Assembly: GCF_023375815.1 (NCBI RefSeq)
Contig: NZ_CP067412.1
Location: 1,364,001-1,428,000, forward strand
Reading direction: 5' to 3'
Length of the DNA stretch: 64,000 nt
From: Pseudomonas sp. HS6
Lineage (GTDB): Bacteria > Pseudomonadota > Gammaproteobacteria > Pseudomonadales > Pseudomonadaceae
The notes below the pieces were generated by a model that saw only the letters and a list, made by a program, of their open reading frames with translations, was not told the origin of the DNA and made no database searches. Positions 49,929 to 64,000 of this stretch are shown piece by piece (position 1 is the first letter of the stretch; every line of letters begins with the position of its first letter). The translations under genes and the position numbers were made by a program.

Positions 49929-50151
49929 CTGAAGCTCCAGAATAATTATTGGAGGGAACAACAGCGTACGAACAAACCGCACTCCGATTAACCACGCCAG
50001 ACCGGCCGCGTGTCAACCCTGCGCGGGTGGCAGAGGCACAACCGCGTCGCTGCAGTGCGGTATCTATGCAATGCCAGCCATCCGCCTCTCCTTCCTAGTC
50101 TTCGGTTCCGATTTACCGACTCATTCAACAGCCTTCATTCGAGACCCGCCG

Positions 50152-53100
50152 ATGTCCACGCTACCTGCACCGCTGCTGTTCCCAGAAGTTTTCGACGCTC
50201 CTGGCTTATGGGCCACCCTGGGAAAAAACCATGGTTTGACGCAAGAGGACTTTCGCTGGCTGGCCCAGGTAAAACTGAGCTCCAGCAAACTGCGCCAACA
50301 GCAAGACCCGCCGATGTACGCCGAACGAATTCTGCTCAAGGTCATCGATCTGCCGGCAATCGCCCTGCCCGGCGGCTTCATGCTCAGCATCACACCCGAT
50401 GACGAAAAAAGTGTGATGCTCTACACCCCCTATGAGGGCCTGAGAAAATGCGACAGTCGCTCGTCCTTGAAATCGGAGCTCGAGGAGCGCCTGAACGACC
50501 CCGAGCAACAGGAAGATCTGTTGGCGTTTCTGGGCTTTCCGCAGCGTAAGTCTTTGCAAGAAGGTGGCAGGATTTCGCTTGCGTTCTCATTCATCGACGG
50601 CGTCGTATTCGATGAGCTCGGCGAGGCGATCGCGCGGGCCCACTTCTTGAACGCACGGGTTCTGCATGAAGAGCTCAGACAATTGCCACCCCTTGCCGAA
50701 GTGCTCGGAGCGATACTGGAAGAACTGCTCAAACCGCACTTCGGGGCGCTGTCGCAGGCCCGTACACGCGTCACCTCATACACCCGTGTCGACAACAGCG
50801 ATTCCACAGGCGGCAGTGACAAGCACTGGCTCGGCTCGATGAGCCTGAGTGAAGCGGTGTTGCTGCATTATCGCTATCAGAGCTGGCCACTTGGCCAGTT
50901 ACAGGAGTACTCCAACCCCGACAGGACGCCCCAGGCTGATGATCAGAAACACTGGGCCAACGCTGTCACGACTGCTTCGAACAGGTTGACCACCTTGTTG
51001 TTTCAACAACTGGAACACTATTGGCAAGCGCCTTCGGCCGAGGGACCGACACGCCGCGCGCTCTTCAGTCAGGTTCTGGAGGAGCAGGCGCGCGCCGAAC
51101 TGATGCTGAAACGAGAGTCCGGCATCGTTGATGCCAGGCAGTTCGACACGTTGCACCAGATGTTTCGACCGGCTACCACTGCGGTACGCCTACCGATCTA
51201 TGAAACTGTACGACTGTGGGAGCATCAGGCCAATTATGTCGAGTTGGCAGGTTCGCTGATGATCAGCGAGACCAGCGCGTTCCTCTATACGCCCGCCCAA
51301 GGTCTACAGGTGCTCAAGGATTACGACGATCTCAAGGACACATTGCGCACCAAGTTCCTGGCGCGCGGGCATGAAGATGAGCTGTACGCCCTTTTGAGTC
51401 TTGAGGAGCGCAGCCGTTTTCTGGGATTCCATGAACCGCAAGTGTCGGGCGAAAGGGTTGCCGGCGAGCTCTTCAAGAGCCTGTTCGAGGCGATCATCAC
51501 CAAACAGCGACAAAACATCGAATATGCGCTGCAGGTGTTTCGTCACAGTGATGGCTCGGTCAACCTGGATGCATTGTTCGACAAGGCACTGGATATCCGC
51601 TCGATGCTTCATGAACGGTTGACCAGGCTCGATGACGACGGACGCTGGAGTACACGTCCAGTGCTCGCCGGCAGCCTCGCGCCCTCAATGGTTCAAGCGG
51701 GCAAGGCCGCTGCGGCCATCAAGACTTTAGCTGCAATCCAGGCGCCTCTCGTCGATGCCCTGAAAGCGCAACCCATGACGAACGCGGCCTTGCAACGAGC
51801 CTATCTGGAAAACCTGAAACCGAGCCTGGCCCATGCATGGTTTGCCGGTGTCAATGCGGAAGCCAAGTTGCGCTTGATGAGTCGGTCAATCCATCACGCG
51901 CAACAGGCGATCGTCAACACGGTGCTCGACGCCAGCTCCCCGACCCGCGTGGAGCGAACCCCACTCAATGGTTTTCGGCCCGATGTTTATGCACTCAGTC
52001 TGGAATGCCCCGGCCAGGCTGCCCCTTTGCCGCTGGCTCATTGCGTACTGATGACCGAACGCGGCGGCATCGACCCACAGCATTCCGGACAAGCCATTAC
52101 CTGGACCCCTGCTTTCGGCCTGGAGATATTCGAGAATGTCACCAGCGCCAGGCGGGCAATGAATTCGCGTCTGGCAGACAAGATCCAGCGTCTGGCGTTA
52201 CTGGAAAATCTTTCACCGAACCGGTACCCGTTTCATCAACGTTGTGAGCTGGGCCCACTCAGGCCGATTCAAGGCAACGTTTTGCAGGATCAGGCGCATT
52301 CGGCGATCGAACACTTCATGAGTCGTTGCGAGCAGGTTCGCTTGCGTATCGAAGATCCGATAGCCCAACGAAAAAACCTCAATGCCTTGAATTTTTCAGC
52401 ACTTTTTTACCAATTGCCTCTGGCATCCAACCAGGCCCAGGCCATCCGACAGCAACAGATACTGCCGGCCTGGCTGGGCAAGGCACCGCTCAGGGAACAG
52501 CAGCTGCATATCGAGCTGCTGGAACAGTGGCGCCAAAGCGTCGATGACAACAAGGATTACCTCGCCGACGTGCCACCGTTGGCGGACTATATCGCGCAGA
52601 GATTGAAATCACTGATCGATACCCGATTTCCCGACAGCAGGCTCGCCCCCCATCAAATCGTCATCACGCCCAATCTCGTTCTGGCGGGCAAAGCTTGCAG
52701 CCTGGTCGACTTTGCCTTGAATCATATCGGCGCACCCCAGGGAATCAGCTTCAAAGTGACTTCAACATCAACCCGTGGGTTGCCGGAAGGGCTGGATCAA
52801 AGTGCCGTCGTTCAATTGCTGTCTTCACTGGATATTCCTGCGTACGCGCAACAAGTGATGGATGCGATATCCGGTCCCGACGCGAAGGATGAAACAGCCA
52901 AAGAGCGATTTCTGCGCCAGGTCCCCTGGCAACTGTTGCAACATGCCCACGCGCTAAAACTCCAACAGCAATTGTCCGAGACCGCATTCGGCTACATTCG
53001 CCAGGTGCTCGACATGCCGGATGCCATCGCCCGAGCCGACGTCAAAGGGGCTCATGCCATTGCTTCACCGTTGTCGCTCATCAAGACTATCGGCGGCGCG

Positions 53101-54936
53101 GCCACGAATGCACTGGGGCTCTATATTTTCGGCCCAGGGACTGGCCACAAAGGCCCCCAGGTTCTTTATTCGCCTTACGGTTCACCGGCATTCAGCGAGT
53201 TTGAAAGCGAAAGCGCCTTGATCGCGGCTTTGAATGTACCCGGGCGTTTGCAGGATCTGATGCTGCGACGCCTGCCGGAAAACCAGCGAGAGATTTTTCG
53301 CAGCCTGTTGGAGTCAACCCTGGGCGAAACCAGTGAAATGACGCTGAACATCAACGCTATCGCGGGCAACTTTCTGGAGCGTTTGTTCAGCGACAATCTG
53401 AGCCTGCTGAAACAGTTTCTGGGCTCCCGGACGCAGAACGATGGACAATCCGACTGGGAGACAGCGAAAAATCTGTTCAATGCAGAGCTCAAGCCGGTCT
53501 CCGATCTGTTGCAGGGGAAAGTGGAATTCATTCCTTTGCTCTGGGATGCCTATGAGGACTTCAAGGACTCTGCCGAGGCGCTGCAGGATCATCATTGGAA
53601 GGTCGCCCTCAAGGCATTTATCGACGGCGCAGCGCAGATGGTGCAAGTTGCCCTGCTTGCGCAAATGTCAGGTGAAAACACGACTGCCGCTGTGACACTG
53701 GTAGAAGAAGCGGTTGCACCTGAACGGGATGATATTGAACTGACGTCGCCCTATCGCACCACATTGCAGTCGTTTGAAGCGAGATCTGTAGCCCTCACCG
53801 ACCTGACCCGTCATCCAGAAGACGGGATTTACTACCAGCCCTCTACCCATCGCACTTACGCACCCGTTGCCGGCAAGGTGTATCGAGTCACAAAAAACGG
53901 CGATGGCTGGAGACTCAAGAATGAGCGCACCCTGGGCCCGGCGCTTTCCCAAAGTGGCTCAGTCCAGGTGCTGGAGCCGAATCAGATCATTCATTTCGGC
54001 AAGGCCTTGTCGAAGTTGCATTCGCGCCGGGTTTACGCGCGCATGCGCCAGACGATGATCAACATCGAAGCGAGGGGCATGGACGAGATCCGCCGCAAAT
54101 ACCCGGAAAGAGCCCGCGTGCTGGTTCAGGCCATCGATCTGGCGCGTTTTTATGCCTTCAATTGCCTGCACAATCTCGCATTGGTCAATGGCGGGGCACC
54201 ACGCGGTCGTGTTCACCTGTTTCTGGAGGACTTGTTTGATGTCGACTCGGTCAGCTCCGTGCTCCTGAAAAAGATCGGTACGGCGATTTTTCCGCTGTGC
54301 AAGGCGCTGGTGGATCCGAGCGATGATTTGATGAATACCGACCGGTTCGTCGTGGGTTCCAATCGTTTCTTCGACGACGTCATCGCCTTTGTGCTGGAAG
54401 GTGACAACCAACAGATTGTGCACTTCACCGAACACTTCTTCGATCAGCAGCTGGACGAGTTCATTCCGCACATCTCCGCAGCCTTCGACATTGATGGGCA
54501 CGCCCAGGCCTCATCGATCATTCACGAGTTTGCCCATCAGTTCAGCAAGGCGGTGGATATCGTGACGATTCGTGCAAGAGAGCCTTTTACGGATCTGATA
54601 TCGCCTGACTCACCACAAGGACTGCTCCTGCAAAACCGACTAGAGGATGAGCAACGAATGGCCCTGTCACTCCAGACGCCGCGAGCTGAGCTGTTTTCTA
54701 CCTGGAGCACGACTCTGAACCGCTGGATCGGTTTCGATGCCGATCCCTTCATGAAAACAGTAGCTGATCAAATTCTGAAAACGACCGGAGCCAGAAGCCT
54801 GGCCGAAGCGCGCAGCGCCTTTTGCGACCGGGTATCTCCGGATACCAGGATTGACGTTATCTTGTTGAACGCCGACTCCATCGCGCGTCTGATCTGCGAA
54901 ATCGGCCGGCAGCTGGATCCCGCGCCAACGAACTGA
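50152..54936 (+). CDS. Large DUF6543/dermonecrotic-toxin-domain protein with C-terminal HEFAH motif
   Basis: 1594 residues from the ATG at 50152 (an in-frame ATG at 50071 is possible; neither has a strong Shine-Dalgarno). The Pseudomonas family is labelled dermonecrotic-toxin-like. Four copies of a loose module are visible: V-x-L-Y-T-P-x-x-G-L near residue 89, F-L-Y-T-P-x-x-G-L near 376, I-T-W-T-P-x-F-G-L near 648 and V-L-Y-S-P near 1003. Each is followed by a charged helix and a leucine-rich L-x-x-L-x-x-x-x-R. H1458-E-F-A-H1462 is a HExxH zinc-protease signature in the last 150 residues. No signal peptide. Such proteins are thought to be secreted effectors or toxins; the target is unknown. 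Confidence 0.8.
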   Translation: MSTLPAPLLFPEVFDAPGLWATLGKNHGLTQEDFRWLAQVKLSSSKLRQQQDPPMYAERILLKVIDLPAIALPGGFMLSITPDDEKSVMLYTPYEGLRKCDSRSSLKSELEERLNDPEQQEDLLAFLGFPQRKSLQEGGRISLAFSFIDGVVFDELGEAIARAHFLNARVLHEELRQLPPLAEVLGAILEELLKPHFGALSQARTRVTSYTRVDNSDSTGGSDKHWLGSMSLSEAVLLHYRYQSWPLGQLQEYSNPDRTPQADDQKHWANAVTTASNRLTTLLFQQLEHYWQAPSAEGPTRRALFSQVLEEQARAELMLKRESGIVDARQFDTLHQMFRPATTAVRLPIYETVRLWEHQANYVELAGSLMISETSAFLYTPAQGLQVLKDYDDLKDTLRTKFLARGHEDELYALLSLEERSRFLGFHEPQVSGERVAGELFKSLFEAIITKQRQNIEYALQVFRHSDGSVNLDALFDKALDIRSMLHERLTRLDDDGRWSTRPVLAGSLAPSMVQAGKAAAAIKTLAAIQAPLVDALKAQPMTNAALQRAYLENLKPSLAHAWFAGVNAEAKLRLMSRSIHHAQQAIVNTVLDASSPTRVERTPLNGFRPDVYALSLECPGQAAPLPLAHCVLMTERGGIDPQHSGQAITWTPAFGLEIFENVTSARRAMNSRLADKIQRLALLENLSPNRYPFHQRCELGPLRPIQGNVLQDQAHSAIEHFMSRCEQVRLRIEDPIAQRKNLNALNFSALFYQLPLASNQAQAIRQQQILPAWLGKAPLREQQLHIELLEQWRQSVDDNKDYLADVPPLADYIAQRLKSLIDTRFPDSRLAPHQIVITPNLVLAGKACSLVDFALNHIGAPQGISFKVTSTSTRGLPEGLDQSAVVQLLSSLDIPAYAQQVMDAISGPDAKDETAKERFLRQVPWQLLQHAHALKLQQQLSETAFGYIRQVLDMPDAIARADVKGAHAIASPLSLIKTIGGAATNALGLYIFGPGTGHKGPQVLYSPYGSPAFSEFESESALIAALNVPGRLQDLMLRRLPENQREIFRSLLESTLGETSEMTLNINAIAGNFLERLFSDNLSLLKQFLGSRTQNDGQSDWETAKNLFNAELKPVSDLLQGKVEFIPLLWDAYEDFKDSAEALQDHHWKVALKAFIDGAAQMVQVALLAQMSGENTTAAVTLVEEAVAPERDDIELTSPYRTTLQSFEARSVALTDLTRHPEDGIYYQPSTHRTYAPVAGKVYRVTKNGDGWRLKNERTLGPALSQSGSVQVLEPNQIIHFGKALSKLHSRRVYARMRQTMINIEARGMDEIRRKYPERARVLVQAIDLARFYAFNCLHNLALVNGGAPRGRVHLFLEDLFDVDSVSSVLLKKIGTAIFPLCKALVDPSDDLMNTDRFVVGSNRFFDDVIAFVLEGDNQQIVHFTEHFFDQQLDEFIPHISAAFDIDGHAQASSIIHEFAHQFSKAVDIVTIRAREPFTDLISPDSPQGLLLQNRLEDEQRMALSLQTPRAELFSTWSTTLNRWIGFDADPFMKTVADQILKTTGARSLAEARSAFCDRVSPDTRIDVILLNADSIARLICEIGRQLDPAPTN

Positions 54937-55222: not shown

Positions 55223-56224
55223 ATGACCCAGAACACGCTCTCGGAAGCCGAATACGATGCGATCACCGATGCCGCCGCGCATTGGTGCATGCGCCTGCAT
55301 GCCGTCGACTGCACCGCCGAGGAACGGCTGGCGTTCGAGCAATGGCGCAATGCGCACCCGCTTCATGCGTTCGAATACGAGGCGATGCTGGAAATCTGGG
55401 ATGTCGCCGAACACCTGCCGCGCCCGGAGCCGGCGGTGGTCGTACCGATCAGGCAGCCGGGCCGGAGCTGGCGCCAATACGCGGTAGCGGCCTCCATCTG
55501 CGCGCTGGCGCTGCCACTGGCGGCGTGGACCGGCTGGAACCTGGGCTGGCTGCCCAACAGCTATCAGCATTTCGCGGCCACCGACAATGTCCGCCACGTC
55601 ACTCTGGGCGATGGAAGTCAGGTCGAACTCAACCTCAATACCGATCTGACCTTCAGCAATTACAAGGACGAGCGCCGTGTCACCCTGAAAAGGGGTGAGG
55701 CCTTTTTCGAAGTCAGCCATGACCTGAACCATCCGTTTATCGTCAGGGCTGGCGAAGGCAAGATTCGCGTCACCGGCACCCGTTTCAACGTCTGGATGTA
55801 TGAAGACCAGGTGAAGGTGAACCTGGTCGAGGGTTCCGTGCTGGTCACCAGCAACACTCAATTGTCCGGCGATGGTCTGCGCCTTGGGCCCTCGATGCAG
55901 GCGCGCTACAAACACGGCGACTACATGCCGCAAATCAGCCAGACCTACGCCAACGACACTTCGCTGGCCTGGCGCAGCGGCAAATTGATTCTCGACAACC
56001 TGGCGTTGAATGAAGCCCTGCCGCTGATCAACCGTTATCTGGACAAACCGTTGATGCTGGCCGATAGCGCCACGGGGTCGATCCGGGTCGGCGGCGTCTA
56101 CAACATCAAGGAGCTGAACAGCTTCGCCAGTTTGATACCCAGAGCCCTGCCGGTGTACATCACCCGCAACAAGGACGGCAATCCGGTGATCAACCCGATG
56201 CCGCAGCAACCCCCAAAAAGCTGA
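55223..56224 (+). CDS. FecR-family anti-sigma/regulator without a sigma gene
   Basis: 333 residues. The N-terminal DUF4880 segment (AAHWCMRLHAVDCTAEERLAF) is followed by a single membrane helix at about residues 88-106, the FecR domain (HVTLGDGSQVELNLNTDL, KRGEAFFEVSHD, GTRFNVW) and a C-terminal STN-like domain. FecR proteins hold an ECF sigma factor and pass signals from a TonB receptor. Here no ECF sigma gene and no receptor gene lie in the same operon. It follows the toxin gene and converges on pvdQ, so a link to pyoverdine signalling (FpvR-like) is possible but inferred. Confidence 0.88.
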   Translation: MTQNTLSEAEYDAITDAAAHWCMRLHAVDCTAEERLAFEQWRNAHPLHAFEYEAMLEIWDVAEHLPRPEPAVVVPIRQPGRSWRQYAVAASICALALPLAAWTGWNLGWLPNSYQHFAATDNVRHVTLGDGSQVELNLNTDLTFSNYKDERRVTLKRGEAFFEVSHDLNHPFIVRAGEGKIRVTGTRFNVWMYEDQVKVNLVEGSVLVTSNTQLSGDGLRLGPSMQARYKHGDYMPQISQTYANDTSLAWRSGKLILDNLALNEALPLINRYLDKPLMLADSATGSIRVGGVYNIKELNSFASLIPRALPVYITRNKDGNPVINPMPQQPPKS

Positions 56225-56253
56225 AGGCCGCCCTTTGCGAGGGCGGCCTTCAG
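56221..56253. terminator. Shared hairpin between the fecR-like gene and pvdQ
   Basis: CTGAAGGCCGCCCT-TTGCG-AGGGCGGCCTTCAG: perfect 14-base stem, which includes the fecR-like stop codon (TGA at 56222-56224). It lies between convergent genes and likely stops both. Confidence 0.75.
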
Positions 56254-56280
56254 CGTTCGTTGCGATATCCTGGCGAATGA

Positions 56281-58623
56281 TTACTGCGCCGCCACTTTCC
56301 CCGTTTTATCCAGATCCTCACGCACGCTTTGCACCTGATACTGCGGATCAGCCTTGATCTGCTGTTCGGTGAATGGCAATGCGCTCCACTGTTTCTTCGA
56401 GAAGGCCTCGGTCTGATCCCGCGAGTACTTCGACGCCGGATCACTGGACAGCGAGAACGCGAGCAACCCTTGAGCGTGCGGCCCCTTGTCGTCAAACGTC
56501 ACGACTTGCAGGTAACTGGTGCCACTGACCACTTCCAGCTTGCCGTCTTCACGCGGCACGCTCTGAATCGCGTTGTAGATGCCCAGCGTGCCTGGCCCGC
56601 CATGGATCGGCGTCTGCTGACCGCCACTGCTGACCACCTGGACATCGCCCCAACGGGTTTGCGCAGTCAGGCCCATTTTGCTGGCCGACTCGGCTGACGC
56701 CAGCATCGCTTCGCGCAGAGCCTTGGCCACTTCGGGCTTTTCAGTCGCCAGCCCGCGCGGGGTGTGCTGTGCGTCTTTCGGGTCGAACGCCACACGCCAG
56801 ACATCCGGCGACTCCTGCAAGGCTTGCATGATGTTCTGGAAATGCACCAACCCCATTCCCGAGTCCAGATTCGCCCGACCGTCCCATGCCTTGAGACCGC
56901 TGCACACCGATTTCAACGCGGCCTCGGCGCCGGTTGGCGATGCACAGAACGTCAGCAGATCCGGCAGTGCCTGACTGGCCAGAAACACTTGATCGTCCAT
57001 CACCATGTGTTGCAGATCCTGCACCGACACCGAACCTTTTTTGCTCAGGTTTGCCAGGCGATCCAGTGCGAAACGCGAGCGCAGCCCCAGCGGCTGGCCT
57101 TCCTGACTGATCAGCGGCGAGAAACCGGTCAGCGGTTGTGCCGGGTTGGCCAGCCACGCCGAATCGTTGGAGTGCTGGACAAAATCCTTGCGCGACAGTT
57201 GCGGCAATTGGCTGGATGCGTAGATGCCTTTTTGCGCGGCTTGCGGATCGATGTCCCAGGCGCAGGCGCTGTTGGAGCCGTCGAGCACGATCATTTTCAG
57301 ACCGATACGCGGATCACTGCACTTGGCCAGTTTGTCGGCACTGACGTTCGGCACCACCGACAGGTTCATGTACAGCGTCTGACCCTTGTCATCCACCGCC
57401 AGGGTGTTGACCCACGGGATGCCCTGGATCTTGTGCACCGAATCCTGCAGATCCTTGAGGTTGTCGGCACGGTTCATCGCATACCACTGAGTCAACACCC
57501 GGTCGTTGTCGAGGTTGGCATCGCGCAAGCTGTAGGCGTACTGATTGTTCCAGTCGAGCTTGCCCGGCCACTGCACGATCGGGCCGAACTGCGAACTGTA
57601 GATCTCGCGCGATACCGGCGTCACCTGCCCGTCCGCCTGCTTGACCTGCACTGTCACCGTTTGCCTGTTCAACGGCAGCGATTTGCCATCGAGCAGGTAG
57701 CGGGTCGGGTCTTTCGGATCGAGTTGCAGGCGATACAGGGTGAAATGCTTGGACGAGTCAACCGTGTGGGTCCAGGCCAGGTGCTGGTTGAAACCGATGT
57801 TGATCATCGGCAGGCCCGGCAGCGCTGCGCCCATCACATCCAGTTTGCCGGGAATGGTCAGGTGCATCTGATAGAAACGCATGCCGCCGACCCACGGAAA
57901 ATGCGGGTTTGCCAGCAACATTCCACGGCCGTTGAAGGAACGCTCGCTGCCCACGGCCACCGCGTTGCTGCCACGGTCCAGAGCGAAGCGTTGCAGGCGC
58001 GTGGCGGCCAGGTCATAAGCGCGGGCATGGCTTTCGTTTTGCGCAGTGACTTGTGGCGGCGTGGCGCCGACCAGTGCCTCGGCAAACTGACCGACACCGC
58101 CCTCGACCAGCAACCGACGCGTCAGTTTCACCAGGTCTTCGGCTGCGATATCGCGCACCCATTCACCCTGGCACTGTTGCGGCAGCCCTTGCTGGCGTCG
58201 TTCGGCCAGATAACGGTTGTAACCAGCGGCATAACCCTGCACCAGATCACGGACTTCGACCGGCTGCGCCTGCCAGAAGGCATTCACCGCTTGCGGGGTG
58301 TTGAGCCATTGGAAGAACACATCACTGACACGGTTTTCGCGTTCTTCGACGGTGAGCTGATCCGGTCCGAAGTAACGCGACCGCTCGCCGTTGACCGTCA
58401 CGATTTCATTGGCCAGCAGACACAAATTGTCCTGCGCATAAGCGTAACCGATGCCGAACCCGAGGCCGCGTTCGTTTTCCGCGCGGATATGCGGCACGCC
58501 AAACCCCGTGCGACGGATGTCGGCCCCGGCCTGGGTGGAAGGACTGAACGCATGCGCCGACAGACTCAGCCCGAGAAACATGCCGGCTAGGGTCAGTCCG
58601 GTTAACTGCCTGGAAATAATCAC
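56281..58623 (-). CDS. pvdQ: PvdQ, periplasmic Ntn-hydrolase acylase for pyoverdine maturation
   Basis: 780 residues. The GTG start at 58623 has CAGGAGC upstream and leads into a signal peptide ending LSAHA. The alpha chain opens with [22 protein letters not shown]. The new N-terminal Ser of the beta chain is in [14 protein letters not shown], the autoprocessing and catalytic site. PvdQ removes the fatty acyl chain from the pyoverdine precursor (ferribactin) in the periplasm and can also cleave long-chain acyl-homoserine lactones. By memory the sequence matches PA2385 better than QuiP. A Fur-like gene diverges from it, as PA2384 does in P. aeruginosa. Confidence 0.95.
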
Positions 58624-59871: not shown

Positions 59872-59902
59872 AAAAATGCCCACGATGATGTGGGCATTTT
59901 CC
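59872..59902 (+). terminator. Terminator after the small lipoprotein
   Basis: AAAAATGCCCAC-gatgat-GTGGGCATTTTC, stem of eleven to twelve bases with a T-run, about 65 bases after the stop. Confidence 0.85.
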
Positions 59903-60069: not shown

Positions 60070-61323
60070 ATGCAAAGCACACTCATCGATATCCCGCCGC
60101 TAAAAACACTTGGCTTCTGTCTGGCCATCACGCTGTTCGAGTGGCTGACCTACATGGCCAGCGACATGATCATGCCGGCCATGCTCTCCGTCACCAAAGA
60201 CCTCAGTGCCGATCCACGTCATATCCCCACTGCGTTCAATCTGTACCTGATCGGTGGCGTCTGCCTGCAATGGCTGATCGGGCCTCTGTCCGACCGGTTT
60301 GGCCGGCGTCCCTTGCTGCTCATCGGCTGCGCGCTCTTCGCCATGACCTGCCTGGCTGCGATCGCCACACCTGGCATCGAAGTCTTCAATGCGCTGCGAC
60401 TACTGCAAGGCATGGGGCTGGGGTTCGTGGTGGCTGTCAGTTATCCCGCGCTTCAGGAAGTGTTCGGTGAGGCGGATGCCGTACGGCTCATGGCGCTGCT
60501 GGGCAACGTCGCGCTGTTATCGCCACTGATGGGCCCGCTGCTCGGCAGCCTGCTGCTGGAATGGCTGAGCTGGCGCGAACTGTTCCTGGCCCTGGGCCTG
60601 GCGGCCGCCATCACGTGGATCGGGCTCTACGCCTGTATGCCGGAAACCGTTGGGGTCGTTCGTCGTGATGGCAGCCAGCAGGCTTCGGTTCCGTTGTCCT
60701 GGCGACTGACGCGTCGTCGGTATCTGGCCCTGCTGCGCAACCCGAAATTCCTCGGTGCGAGCCTTGCACTGGGGATGATGAGTCTGCCGCTGATAGCGTG
60801 GATCGGACTCTCGCCTCTGTTGCTGATCCAGCGACTTGGCTTGTCTATGCGTGAGTACGCCTTGTGGCAGATACCGATCTTTTCGGCGGTCATCGTCGGC
60901 AATCTGATCCTTGACCGGTTACTGGCCTCGCGCGAACTGGCGCAATTGATTCGCCTGGCGCTGTGGCCGTTTTGCCTCGGACTGCTGACCCTGCTGATCG
61001 GCGCCCTGACCGGTGCCTCCCTCAATTTGTTGATTGCAGGCCTCGCGCTGTACGCATTGGGACTGGGTATCAGCAATGCCGCGCTGTACCGGCTGGCGCT
61101 GTTTTCCAGCGATGACAGCAAAGGTCTGGTCTCGGCAGCAGTGGGCATGATCTCGATTGCGGTAATGGGCACCGGCGGTTCGCTCATCGCGGCCATCGGC
61201 GGCGGTGCCCGCCTCGAATTCTTCGCCCTTTGGGCAGCACTGGGCGGGCTGCTGAGCCTGCCCTTCTTGTACCGTTTTCTGCGAGAAACTCCGGCGAAAA
61301 CCGCCTCTTCGACACATCAATAA
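60070..61323 (+). CDS. MdfA-like multidrug/product exporter (MFS)
   Basis: 417 residues, twelve helices. It follows the E. coli MdfA pattern: EWLTYMASDMIMPAMLSV (helix 1 with the membrane acid), GPLSDRFGRRPLLL (motif A), and GNVALLSPLMGPLLGSLLLEW. Placed ten bases before a LuxE-like gene and in line with a LuxC-like gene, it probably exports the compound they make rather than acting as a general drug pump. No regulator gene is next to it in the window. The Shine-Dalgarno is weak. Confidence 0.9.
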   Translation: MQSTLIDIPPLKTLGFCLAITLFEWLTYMASDMIMPAMLSVTKDLSADPRHIPTAFNLYLIGGVCLQWLIGPLSDRFGRRPLLLIGCALFAMTCLAAIATPGIEVFNALRLLQGMGLGFVVAVSYPALQEVFGEADAVRLMALLGNVALLSPLMGPLLGSLLLEWLSWRELFLALGLAAAITWIGLYACMPETVGVVRRDGSQQASVPLSWRLTRRRYLALLRNPKFLGASLALGMMSLPLIAWIGLSPLLLIQRLGLSMREYALWQIPIFSAVIVGNLILDRLLASRELAQLIRLALWPFCLGLLTLLIGALTGASLNLLIAGLALYALGLGISNAALYRLALFSSDDSKGLVSAAVGMISIAVMGTGGSLIAAIGGGARLEFFALWAALGGLLSLPFLYRFLRETPAKTASSTHQ

Positions 61324-61332
61324 GGACGTCTG

Positions 61333-62463
61333 ATGTCTCATTTCCCCCACAGCGACGCGCTCTGTGCGTTGTCGCAACCCTATTGCCCGGAATCCGTACC
61401 AGTGGGTCTTTTCGACCAGGCCATGGCCGAAATCAGCCGGTTTCACAGTGAGCACACGCCTGGTTATGAACATTGGTTGAACGCCAACGGCCTGACCGTG
61501 ACGGACCTGGACAGCATCGACGATTGGTCGCGACTGCCGCCGATCTTTGCCAGTTTCTTCAAACAGCAACAACTGCTCAGCCCGACGGGTGCAGACGCAC
61601 TGGAACTGACATCGTCAGGCACCAGCGGCCAGAAAAGCCGCATGCGTTATGACGAACGCAGTCTTGCCGCTGCGCAGTACATGGTTGAACGGATCTTCCA
61701 CCACTATGGCTGGGACAGCCCGCACACGCCGTGCAACTACTTGCTTCTGAGCTATGAGCCCGAAGCCAGCATCACCCTTGGCACGTCGTTTACCGACCAG
61801 TTCCTGTGCCGATTCGCTCCGGTCAACCGTGTGGCGTATGCCTTGCGCCGCACCGGTAGCGGCCATGAGTTTGACGGTTTCGGCGTCATTTCGGCGTTGC
61901 AGTCCTTTGCCGAAGAAGGCCTGCCGGTGCGCATCATCGGCTTCCCGGCGTTTCTGTGGCACACCCTGCAACGCATGCGTGCCTCCGGGGTGGCAGATCT
62001 GCGCCTCGCGCCGGACTCGCTGGCGTTGTTTGGCGGCGGCTGGAAAACCAGCGCCGCGCAGGAGATTCCCCGCCGTAAGCTTTACGAGCGCATTCATCAG
62101 CAATTGGGAATCGACATCGCCCGCTGCCGCGACGGCTACGGTGCAGTCGAGCATCCGGTGCCTTACTTCGAATGCGCTCACCATCGTTTCCATGTCCCGG
62201 TGTATTCGAAGGTATTCGTGCGCGATCCATCCAGTTTCTCCGTCCTGCCCTATGGCCGGCCGGGCTTGCTGAGTGCGGTCTCGCCCTACATTTCTTCCAG
62301 CCCTGCCCATGCGGTCGTCATGAGCGACCTCGCCACCCTGCACCCCGGCGCAAGCTGCGGCTGCGGTCTGGACAGCGACTGGTTCGATTTGCATGGCCGC
62401 GCCGCCGCCACGGCGGGCAGAAGCTGCGCCATGGCGGCGTCCGAACTGCTGGGGAGGCACTGA
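61333..62463 (+). CDS. LuxE/PaaK-type acyl-protein synthetase
   Basis: 376 residues, AAGGA before the ATG. The ATP/AMP-binding loop is TSSGTSGQKSRMRYDERSL (93-111), a glycine/serine-rich P-loop of the acyl-adenylate superfamily. Further family traits are LLLSYEPEAS and DGYGAVEHPVPYFEC. The C-terminus has the CGCGLDSDWFDLHGRA motif seen in PaaK. LuxE activates a fatty acid and passes the acyl group to a cysteine on the reductase partner. The next gene is LuxC-like and starts two bases later, so the pair should hand acyl groups on to aldehyde formation. Confidence 0.87.
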   Translation: MSHFPHSDALCALSQPYCPESVPVGLFDQAMAEISRFHSEHTPGYEHWLNANGLTVTDLDSIDDWSRLPPIFASFFKQQQLLSPTGADALELTSSGTSGQKSRMRYDERSLAAAQYMVERIFHHYGWDSPHTPCNYLLLSYEPEASITLGTSFTDQFLCRFAPVNRVAYALRRTGSGHEFDGFGVISALQSFAEEGLPVRIIGFPAFLWHTLQRMRASGVADLRLAPDSLALFGGGWKTSAAQEIPRRKLYERIHQQLGIDIARCRDGYGAVEHPVPYFECAHHRFHVPVYSKVFVRDPSSFSVLPYGRPGLLSAVSPYISSSPAHAVVMSDLATLHPGASCGCGLDSDWFDLHGRAAATAGRSCAMAASELLGRH

Positions 62464-62464
62464 C

Positions 62465-64000
62465 ATGTACCTGATCAATGGACAACTTCACGATGACCTC
62501 AACCTCGATACCGCGCTGAATCAACTGCGTCACGTGCTGCCACAACGTCTGAATTCGCCTCTGCAAAGCGAGACGGTTATTCATGCGGCGGCCGCGTTCG
62601 CCCGCCGGTTAGGCGATTTCAGTCCGGCCCTGCCGCTCGATGCAGAACAACGCCAGTCGTTGATTGCGTTCTGTCAGCCTCAAGGGCTGCGGCGCAAGCT
62701 CGAACGGGAGCTGGGCGATCAACCCTCTGCACTGCGTCGCTTCGACTTTCGCCAACCACGTTTCGAGCGCTGGAGTCCGCTGGGCCTGGTGGTTCATATC
62801 ACCCCCGGCAACGCGACACTGTTGGCGTTCTGCGCGGTGATCGAGAGTCTGCTGGCCGGTAACGTCAACTGGCTACGCCCCAGCAGCAGCGACCACGGGC
62901 TGACTGCGCAATTGCTCAATGCGCTGACGCAATGCGACCCCAGCGGCCAACTCGCGGGACATGTCGCTGTCGTTCCGGCGACCACCGCGCAAATCGGCCA
63001 GTTGTGCCAATGGGCCGACGGTGTCTCTGCCTGGGGTGGCGAATCGGCACTGCAAGCGATTCGTCAGCAGATCCCCGCCGGGTGCCGCTGGATCGATTGG
63101 GGGCACCGCATCAGCTTCGTCTATCTGACTCCGGACGCCGCCTCGCCGCAAGCGCTGGATGCCGTGGCGGATGAAGTCTGTCGACTCGATCAGCAAGCCT
63201 GTTCCAGCCCGCAATGGTTGCTGGTGGACAGCGACGACGAAGCCGTGCTGCGCGAGATCGGTGAACGCCTGGCCGAGTCATTCGAACGCCGTGCCGGGCA
63301 ATGGCCGCCCTTACAGCCCACCCTTCAGGAAGCCTCGCAAATCACCACCGACACGGCCATGGCCAGGCTTGCACACAGTTTCGCCGAGGTGGCTGGCGAG
63401 GTCTGGACAGCACCCGGCTGGCGGGTGATCTGGACCCATGACCAACACTTGAAACCTTCGCCGCTGTTTCGCAGCCTGCTGCTCAAGCCACTGCCCCGCA
63501 CGCGGGTGATCGAGACCTTGTTGCCATGGCGAAACCTCCTGCAAAGCTGCGCCCTGATCTGCCCGGAACAGCAGATTGCAGAGCTTTCACAGCGACTGAT
63601 CACCGCCGGCGTCACCCGGATTGCGCCGATGCTAGCCATTCACGATGGCTACAACGGCGAACCTCACGACGGCGTCTATGCCCTGCAACGCTTGAGCCGG
63701 CGAGTCTCGGTCAGTCTGTCGCCGACACAACTGACCACCCAGGCGACGCTCAACGGCCCGCCACCTCGGCCCCGCGTGGCCGACCTGCCGATCATGAGCA
63801 AGGAAGACTTCGTCACACGTCCGATCAATCCTGCGGCCCAGCTGTATTTCCGATCCGGCGGCAGCAGCGGCGTGCCGGCGTTGTCAGGCTTCAGCTATCG
63901 GGACTTTCGCCAACAGATGTGCGCGACGGCCGATGGTCTGTTTGCATCCGGTCTTGATCCAGTTAAAGACCGGGTGATGAACCTGTTTTTCAGTGGCGGT
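62465..64000 (+). CDS. LuxC acyl-CoA reductase fused to a PaaK-like ligase domain (truncated by window edge)
   Basis: 512 codons to the window end. Residues 1 to about 430 form the LuxC fold: RWSPLGLVVHITPGNATLL, then SAWGGESALQAIRQQ, and the active cysteine C246 in RLDQQACSSPQWL, which forms the acyl thioester. After about residue 435 a new AMP-ligase segment begins (LPIMSKEDFVTRPINPAAQL, RSGGSSGVPALSGFSYRDF), which is the PaaK P-loop type. So one chain carries a reductase and a second acyl activator. The natural substrate is unknown; with LuxE and the exporter it suggests a small-molecule pathway making an aldehyde or amide. Confidence 0.87.
   Translation, partial: MYLINGQLHDDLNLDTALNQLRHVLPQRLNSPLQSETVIHAAAAFARRLGDFSPALPLDAEQRQSLIAFCQPQGLRRKLERELGDQPSALRRFDFRQPRFERWSPLGLVVHITPGNATLLAFCAVIESLLAGNVNWLRPSSSDHGLTAQLLNALTQCDPSGQLAGHVAVVPATTAQIGQLCQWADGVSAWGGESALQAIRQQIPAGCRWIDWGHRISFVYLTPDAASPQALDAVADEVCRLDQQACSSPQWLLVDSDDEAVLREIGERLAESFERRAGQWPPLQPTLQEASQITTDTAMARLAHSFAEVAGEVWTAPGWRVIWTHDQHLKPSPLFRSLLLKPLPRTRVIETLLPWRNLLQSCALICPEQQIAELSQRLITAGVTRIAPMLAIHDGYNGEPHDGVYALQRLSRRVSVSLSPTQLTTQATLNGPPPRPRVADLPIMSKEDFVTRPINPAAQLYFRSGGSSGVPALSGFSYRDFRQQMCATADGLFASGLDPVKDRVMNLFFSGG

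Follow-up and report, generated by a model that had tools for sequence, protein, structure and literature searches.

A putative leupABCD-type operon for a leupeptin-family peptide aldehyde beside the pyoverdine gene pvdQ in Pseudomonas

A non-NRPS pathway to leupeptin was reportedly described by Li et al. in 2020. The corresponding operon, leupABCD, is reported from Klebsiella michiganensis/oxytoca and from Xenorhabdus/Photorhabdus (PMC8283571, PMC11480411, PMC11212599). For Klebsiella CAV1374 the primers and coordinates of leupABCD were published, and a transporter adjoins the genes (PMC8283571). Leupeptin is described as the product of separate AMP-dependent ligases plus a reductase (PMC11212599), and the operon yields leupeptin together with its lysine analogue (PMC11480411). 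Antipain and MAPI are given as NRPS-made peptide aldehydes (PMC10548850, PMC11212599), and leupeptin is likewise listed among NRPS-made compounds (PMC10548850). In a literature search directed at Pseudomonas, no paper describing a leupeptin operon in this genus was recognised; Li et al. (2020) may report one.

The window analysed here is a stretch of 64,000 nucleotides, C1:1364001-1428000 of a 6.55-Mb genome, and the closest named relatives of its proteins come from Pseudomonas. Its last 4 kb and the sequence beyond contain the following features.

59875..59900, + strand: terminator-like hairpin followed by a T run, upstream of the operon, predicted from the sequence and partly conserved among relatives.
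60070..61323, + strand: MdfA-like MFS exporter, 417 aa (Pfam MFS_1; NCBIfam MdfA 350 bits, below cut-off).
61333..62463, + strand: LuxE-type acyl-protein synthetase, 376 aa, counterpart of LeupA (PF04443; 62% identity to P0138, which bears the leupA_f primer peptide).
62465..64000 and on to C1:1428915, + strand: LuxC reductase fused to a PaaK-like ligase, 816 aa, counterpart of LeupB (PF05893 and PaaK profiles; 53% identity to K. michiganensis P0258).
C1:1428899-1430188, wholly past the window (own locus L003): stand-alone PaaK-like ligase, putative counterpart of LeupC.
C1:1430188-1431108, wholly past the window (own locus L003): GNAT, putative counterpart of LeupD.

The open reading frames and Pfam/NCBIfam matches confirm the original prediction of an MdfA-like exporter, a LuxE and a LuxC-PaaK fusion packed at 60070-64000, and the cassette extends past the window, as had been foreseen, by two further genes, the PaaK-like ligase and the GNAT. 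The first two gene pairs are separated by 9 bases and 1 base, and the next two overlap by 17 bases and 1 base, so that the predicted gap of 1 base holds and that of 10 bases is actually 9. The longest open reading frame of the fusion starts at 62393; the start is most likely at 62465, since the relatives begin with MYLI... The GNAT gene is followed by a gene for a 218-aa protein on the opposite strand, which has no Pfam match, and then by a chemoreceptor-like gene. With these two as the downstream genes, we rejected the idea that carrier proteins or ketosynthases extend the cluster.

The exporter matches Pfam MFS_1 (E 1.2e-33), and its top NCBIfam model is MdfA, at 350 bits against a cut-off of 439. 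LuxE matches PF04443 (E 6e-22), and the N-terminal part of the fusion is LuxC (PF05893, E 4.1e-110). As predicted, the LuxC chain runs into a second acyl-activating domain, a PaaK-like half found by NCBIfam PaaK (5.8e-14) and Pfam AMP-binding (19.3 bits against a cut-off of 29.9), both below cut-off. A profile of the fusion compared with the PDB found phenylacetate-CoA ligases (4e-25) and LuxC 7xc6 (3.9e-24). In the sources the fusion carries the labels 'acyl-CoA reductase', 'aldehyde dehydrogenase family protein' or 'phenylacetate-CoA ligase'.

The catalytic residues are intact. C365 of LuxE is conserved and aligned to a Cys of bioluminescence LuxE that we take to be the acyl-transfer site, C246 of LuxC is conserved and aligned to the active Cys of lux LuxC, and the SGK lysine is present in both PaaK-like units, the fusion half and the stand-alone ligase. 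Against five relatives, dN/dS was 0.09-0.23 across the five operon genes and 0.04 for the chemoreceptor, ratios that are rough, given the large number of synonymous differences (0.44-0.67 per site in the operon genes). They point to purifying selection on the operon genes.

The relation to leupABCD was examined by comparing the Klebsiella primers, as translated peptides, with the listed relatives. Primer leupA_f, read in its third frame, gives EDSDSQ, which occurs in 1 (P0138) of 120 LuxE relatives listed, and leupB_r, reverse-complemented, reads EQLKDH, present in 66 of 120 fusion relatives listed, at residue 47 in 65 of them and at residue 23 in one. The named proteins among these 66 are from Klebsiella, mostly K. 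michiganensis. The printed range of leupA_f exceeds the primer by two bases; EDSDSQ and P0138 are in exact register when the end coordinate of that range is used and counting begins at the published cluster start. With the first residue of P0258 taken as the leupB start, leupA comprises 1128 bp plus one base; the 1-base gap between LuxE and LuxC is common to the Klebsiella and window operons. From LuxE to GNAT the window operon measures 5776 bp, compared with 5831 bp for the Klebsiella cluster, in which 2296 bp are left for leupC and leupD; by this comparison of lengths only, there is room for a ligase and a GNAT. LuxE of the window is 61-62% identical to LuxE relatives tied to proven operons, and the fusion shares 53% identity with P0258 along 801 aa. 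By gene content, gene order and leupA/leupB identity, the sequences place the operon with the leup operons.

We therefore read the operon, with a probability of about 0.9, as a Pseudomonas pathway of leupABCD type, which would make and export a leupeptin-family N-acyl tripeptide aldehyde without an NRPS. The product would be of the acetyl-Leu-Leu-argininal type. The GNAT (LeupD) would N-acylate leucine from acetyl-CoA, and two PaaK-type units, LeupC by itself and LeupB with its C-terminal half, would make the two amide bonds. LeupA (LuxE) would then adenylate the tripeptide acid and hand it over via its C-terminal Cys to the Cys of LuxC, which would reduce it to the aldehyde, and the MFS protein would export the peptide aldehyde. 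The three adenylating units equal the number of ATP-dependent activations needed (two amide bonds and one reduction), and together with one N-acyltransferase and one reductase they correspond to the steps of a route to an N-acyl tripeptide aldehyde. We infer which step belongs to each unit, which residues and acyl group this strain uses, and that the product is exported. The predicted scheme of acid activation, reduction to an aldehyde, joining and export fits a peptide aldehyde. Its 'unknown product' probably fails, because leupABCD with its transporter is an aldehyde pathway already described that shares this gene order.

The full-length fusion was found in 58 of 298 sampled Pseudomonas genomes, the present one included, and split in two pieces in 2 more; with this many genomes holding it, the gene cluster is not a chance assembly. 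At 17 of 20 inspected loci the genes for MFS, LuxE, fusion, ligase and GNAT are flanked by a Fur-like gene and the chemoreceptor, although in 2 of these 17 (L048, L054) the genes are in pieces. pvdQ precedes the operon in 15 of the 20, all among the 17 at the Fur-like site. At the other three loci (54-55% identity) the four enzyme genes stand in a different setting, and this exporter is missing. Seven genomes lacking the fusion were checked around pvdQ. In L141, whose PvdQ is 89% identical, the same neighbours adjoin, and 0.4 kb takes up the operon position; L142 lacks the 218-aa gene and the chemoreceptor as well; five have 2-8 kb of other DNA at this position. The operon is therefore an accessory unit at the pvdQ-side site. 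Control by PvdS was considered and rejected: its box, TAAAT-N16-CGT, the sole iron motif searched, gave 0 matches within the window, 0.51 being expected.

In a LuxE tree of 31 rows, with 11 of 28 inner branches well supported, the window protein falls in a proteobacterial branch with proteins of Klebsiella type and those of Xenorhabdus and Photorhabdus. The tree suggests two lineages in Pseudomonas, the main one being that of the pvdQ site; the other, P. entomophila-like, groups with enterobacterial and Burkholderia lata rows.

Outside Pseudomonas, a tblastn search of plasmids found relatives covering at least 80% of the query on two Salmonella plasmids (51%) and in four records of Streptomyces type (39-44%). 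In one Salmonella plasmid record the four enzyme genes, from LuxE to GNAT, follow the order of the window operon and are preceded by a shortened relative of the exporter; a search of 20,395 E. coli records for this Salmonella cassette gave no near match. The fusion was detected at 1e-20 in 0 of 368 other genomes of the class, a thin sample that carries little weight because fusion relatives occur in many Enterobacterales among the protein relatives listed. A scan of genome contigs with a Streptomyces-first alignment, from which the best 80 of 378 relatives were kept, all titled as actinobacterial, gave with two plasmid loci a set of 82. All five gene kinds are present in 77 of the 82; of the remaining five, three start near the contig start and two are without an exporter match. 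Homology to the window proteins is clear for the Streptomyces LuxE (50%), fusion (44%) and ligase (39%). By BLAST the Streptomyces exporter and GNAT have no similarity to their counterparts in the window, and the two GNATs are connected by a profile match only, over the N-terminal half (E 2e-11). Extra pathway genes beside these cassettes were considered and rejected, AraC-like genes occurring in just 2 of the 82 loci and a kinase-like gene in 1.

Several Streptomyces with the cassette have been connected with leupeptin. S. roseus ATCC 31245 is given as a leupeptin producer (PMC10548850), and its genome (L099) has all five gene kinds. S. cattleya DSM 46488, for which leupeptins and free acetyl-leucyl-leucine are reported (PMC12235219), has all five on its megaplasmid (L056), and the free dipeptide fits discrete ligases. 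Leupeptin was tentatively assigned to S. virginiae THA-960, and the cassette is present in another strain of this species (L065). This co-occurrence is an association, not proof, and makes the Streptomyces cassettes candidate leupeptin genes in that genus. As a weak side test, NRPS-type reductase domains were searched with PF07993. S. roseus gives 7 matches, of which the best scores 61.5 bits and lies in what appears by eye to be a ligase plus epimerase-like protein; the cassette-bearing S. albireticuli and S. noursei have strong matches, up to 224 and 214 bits; and S. cattleya, searched on the megaplasmid only, has one of 135 bits. An NRPS route to leupeptin in Streptomyces may therefore exist.

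A variant of the leupABCD-type reading, for which we see a lesser but real chance, is that the Pseudomonas product is a different N-acyl peptide aldehyde, with altered residues or another acyl group, or acts mainly via a derived pyrazinone. Identities of 61-62% (LuxE) and 53% (fusion) to relatives from proven operons leave room for altered specificity, Val, Lys and propionyl variants are known from Streptomyces producers (PMC12235219), and the Klebsiella leupeptin pyrazinone raises siderophore production (PMC11480411). In the LuxE tree, however, proven producers are on the branch of the window and reported producers outside it, which makes leupeptin itself the simplest guess. It is a speculative extension, and a doubtful one, that the operon of fluorescent Pseudomonas, fixed in the vicinity of pvdQ and a FecR-type regulator, yields an aldehyde of the leupeptin family, that the pyrazinone of this aldehyde also feeds iron control, in the way reported for Klebsiella siderophores, and that classical Streptomyces leupeptin stems from this cassette, not from an NRPS.

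That the five-gene architecture was kept and its chemistry changed, towards an unrelated small molecule, is improbable. The product assignment for Pseudomonas is drawn from the genes, PaaK-like enzymes make many kinds of esters and amides, and the PDB includes AjiA1 and other PaaK-like ligases; against this, the five gene kinds stay together from Streptomyces to Pseudomonas, and leupeptin has been reported from either extreme of the known range. A bioluminescence-like route to a fatty aldehyde, perhaps fed by a fatty acid from PvdQ, would accord with the homology of LuxE and LuxC to the bioluminescence proteins (23-24%) and with the position of pvdQ ahead of most inspected loci, but is very unlikely, as luxA, luxB and luxD are absent from the operon, identities are 51-62% to leup-type proteins as against 22-24% to lux, and the cassette is found away from pvdQ and pvdQ without the cassette.

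The leupABCD-type reading gives a testable product to an operon held by about a fifth of the sampled Pseudomonas. A secreted protease inhibitor, if made, would bear on encounters with plants, insects and protists. The locus looks like a compact and complete route to leupeptin-like protease inhibitors, a type known from other bacteria and located here in Pseudomonas beside the pyoverdine gene pvdQ.

Among the known systems, the NRPS peptide aldehydes share with the proposed product its class, that of N-blocked peptide aldehydes, whereas their clusters have condensation, carrier and reductase modules, none of which was found by Pfam scan in the five operon proteins. With luxCDABE, for which the lux genes on a laboratory plasmid of E. 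coli K-12 served as control, the operon shares the LuxE and LuxC folds and the aligned acyl-transfer and active Cys residues; it differs in having LuxC fused to PaaK and no luxA, luxB or luxD, which agrees with the prediction that bioluminescence is not its function. leupABCD is the closest. Its leupA encodes, from the primer peptide in P0138, a LuxE-type protein as in the window, its leupB a LuxC-PaaK fusion directly after leupA, again as in the window, and the identity across these two compared genes is 53-62%. The transporter adjacent to leupABCD and the MdfA-like MFS of the window correspond by presence alone. What sets the window operon apart from leupABCD is its setting, on the chromosome after a Fur-like gene and mostly with pvdQ.

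The window holds the following genes on the 5' side of the operon:

50071–54936, 1621-aa open reading frame with a HEFAH (HExxH-like) motif close to the C-terminus, upstream of the FecR-type gene
55223–58623, FecR/DUF4880-type regulator and PvdQ, adjoining the operon

PvdQ was called at 1466 bits, above the cut-off of the NCBIfam PvdQ model, and no sigma-factor gene was noticed immediately before the FecR gene in the list of window open reading frames. In Pseudomonas genomes without the operon (L143–L147), its site is occupied by other DNA of 2–8 kb.

Loci L051–L053 represent a second lineage of the cassette within Pseudomonas, which the LuxE tree shows to be P. entomophila-like; in these loci the cassette has a different setting, 3' of a gene encoding 1001–1005 aa, and the MdfA-like exporter is absent. 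Broken copies were also found in Pseudomonas: the exporter and second ligase genes are in pieces in locus L048, and the fusion gene in locus L054 and genome G280, reflecting either decay or assembly error.

The four enzyme genes of the cassette are also carried by a conjugative Salmonella plasmid (CP054717.1; L055, 13467–19630), surrounded by toxin-antitoxin and recombinase genes and preceded by a shortened relative of the exporter. In Streptomyces europaeiscabiei (NZ_CP109155.1; L059, 10538–13116), LuxE and LuxC are unfused and adjoin YcaO, DUF692, and MBL-fold genes; this group looks like a RiPP-type cluster, in which an aldehyde step is possible.
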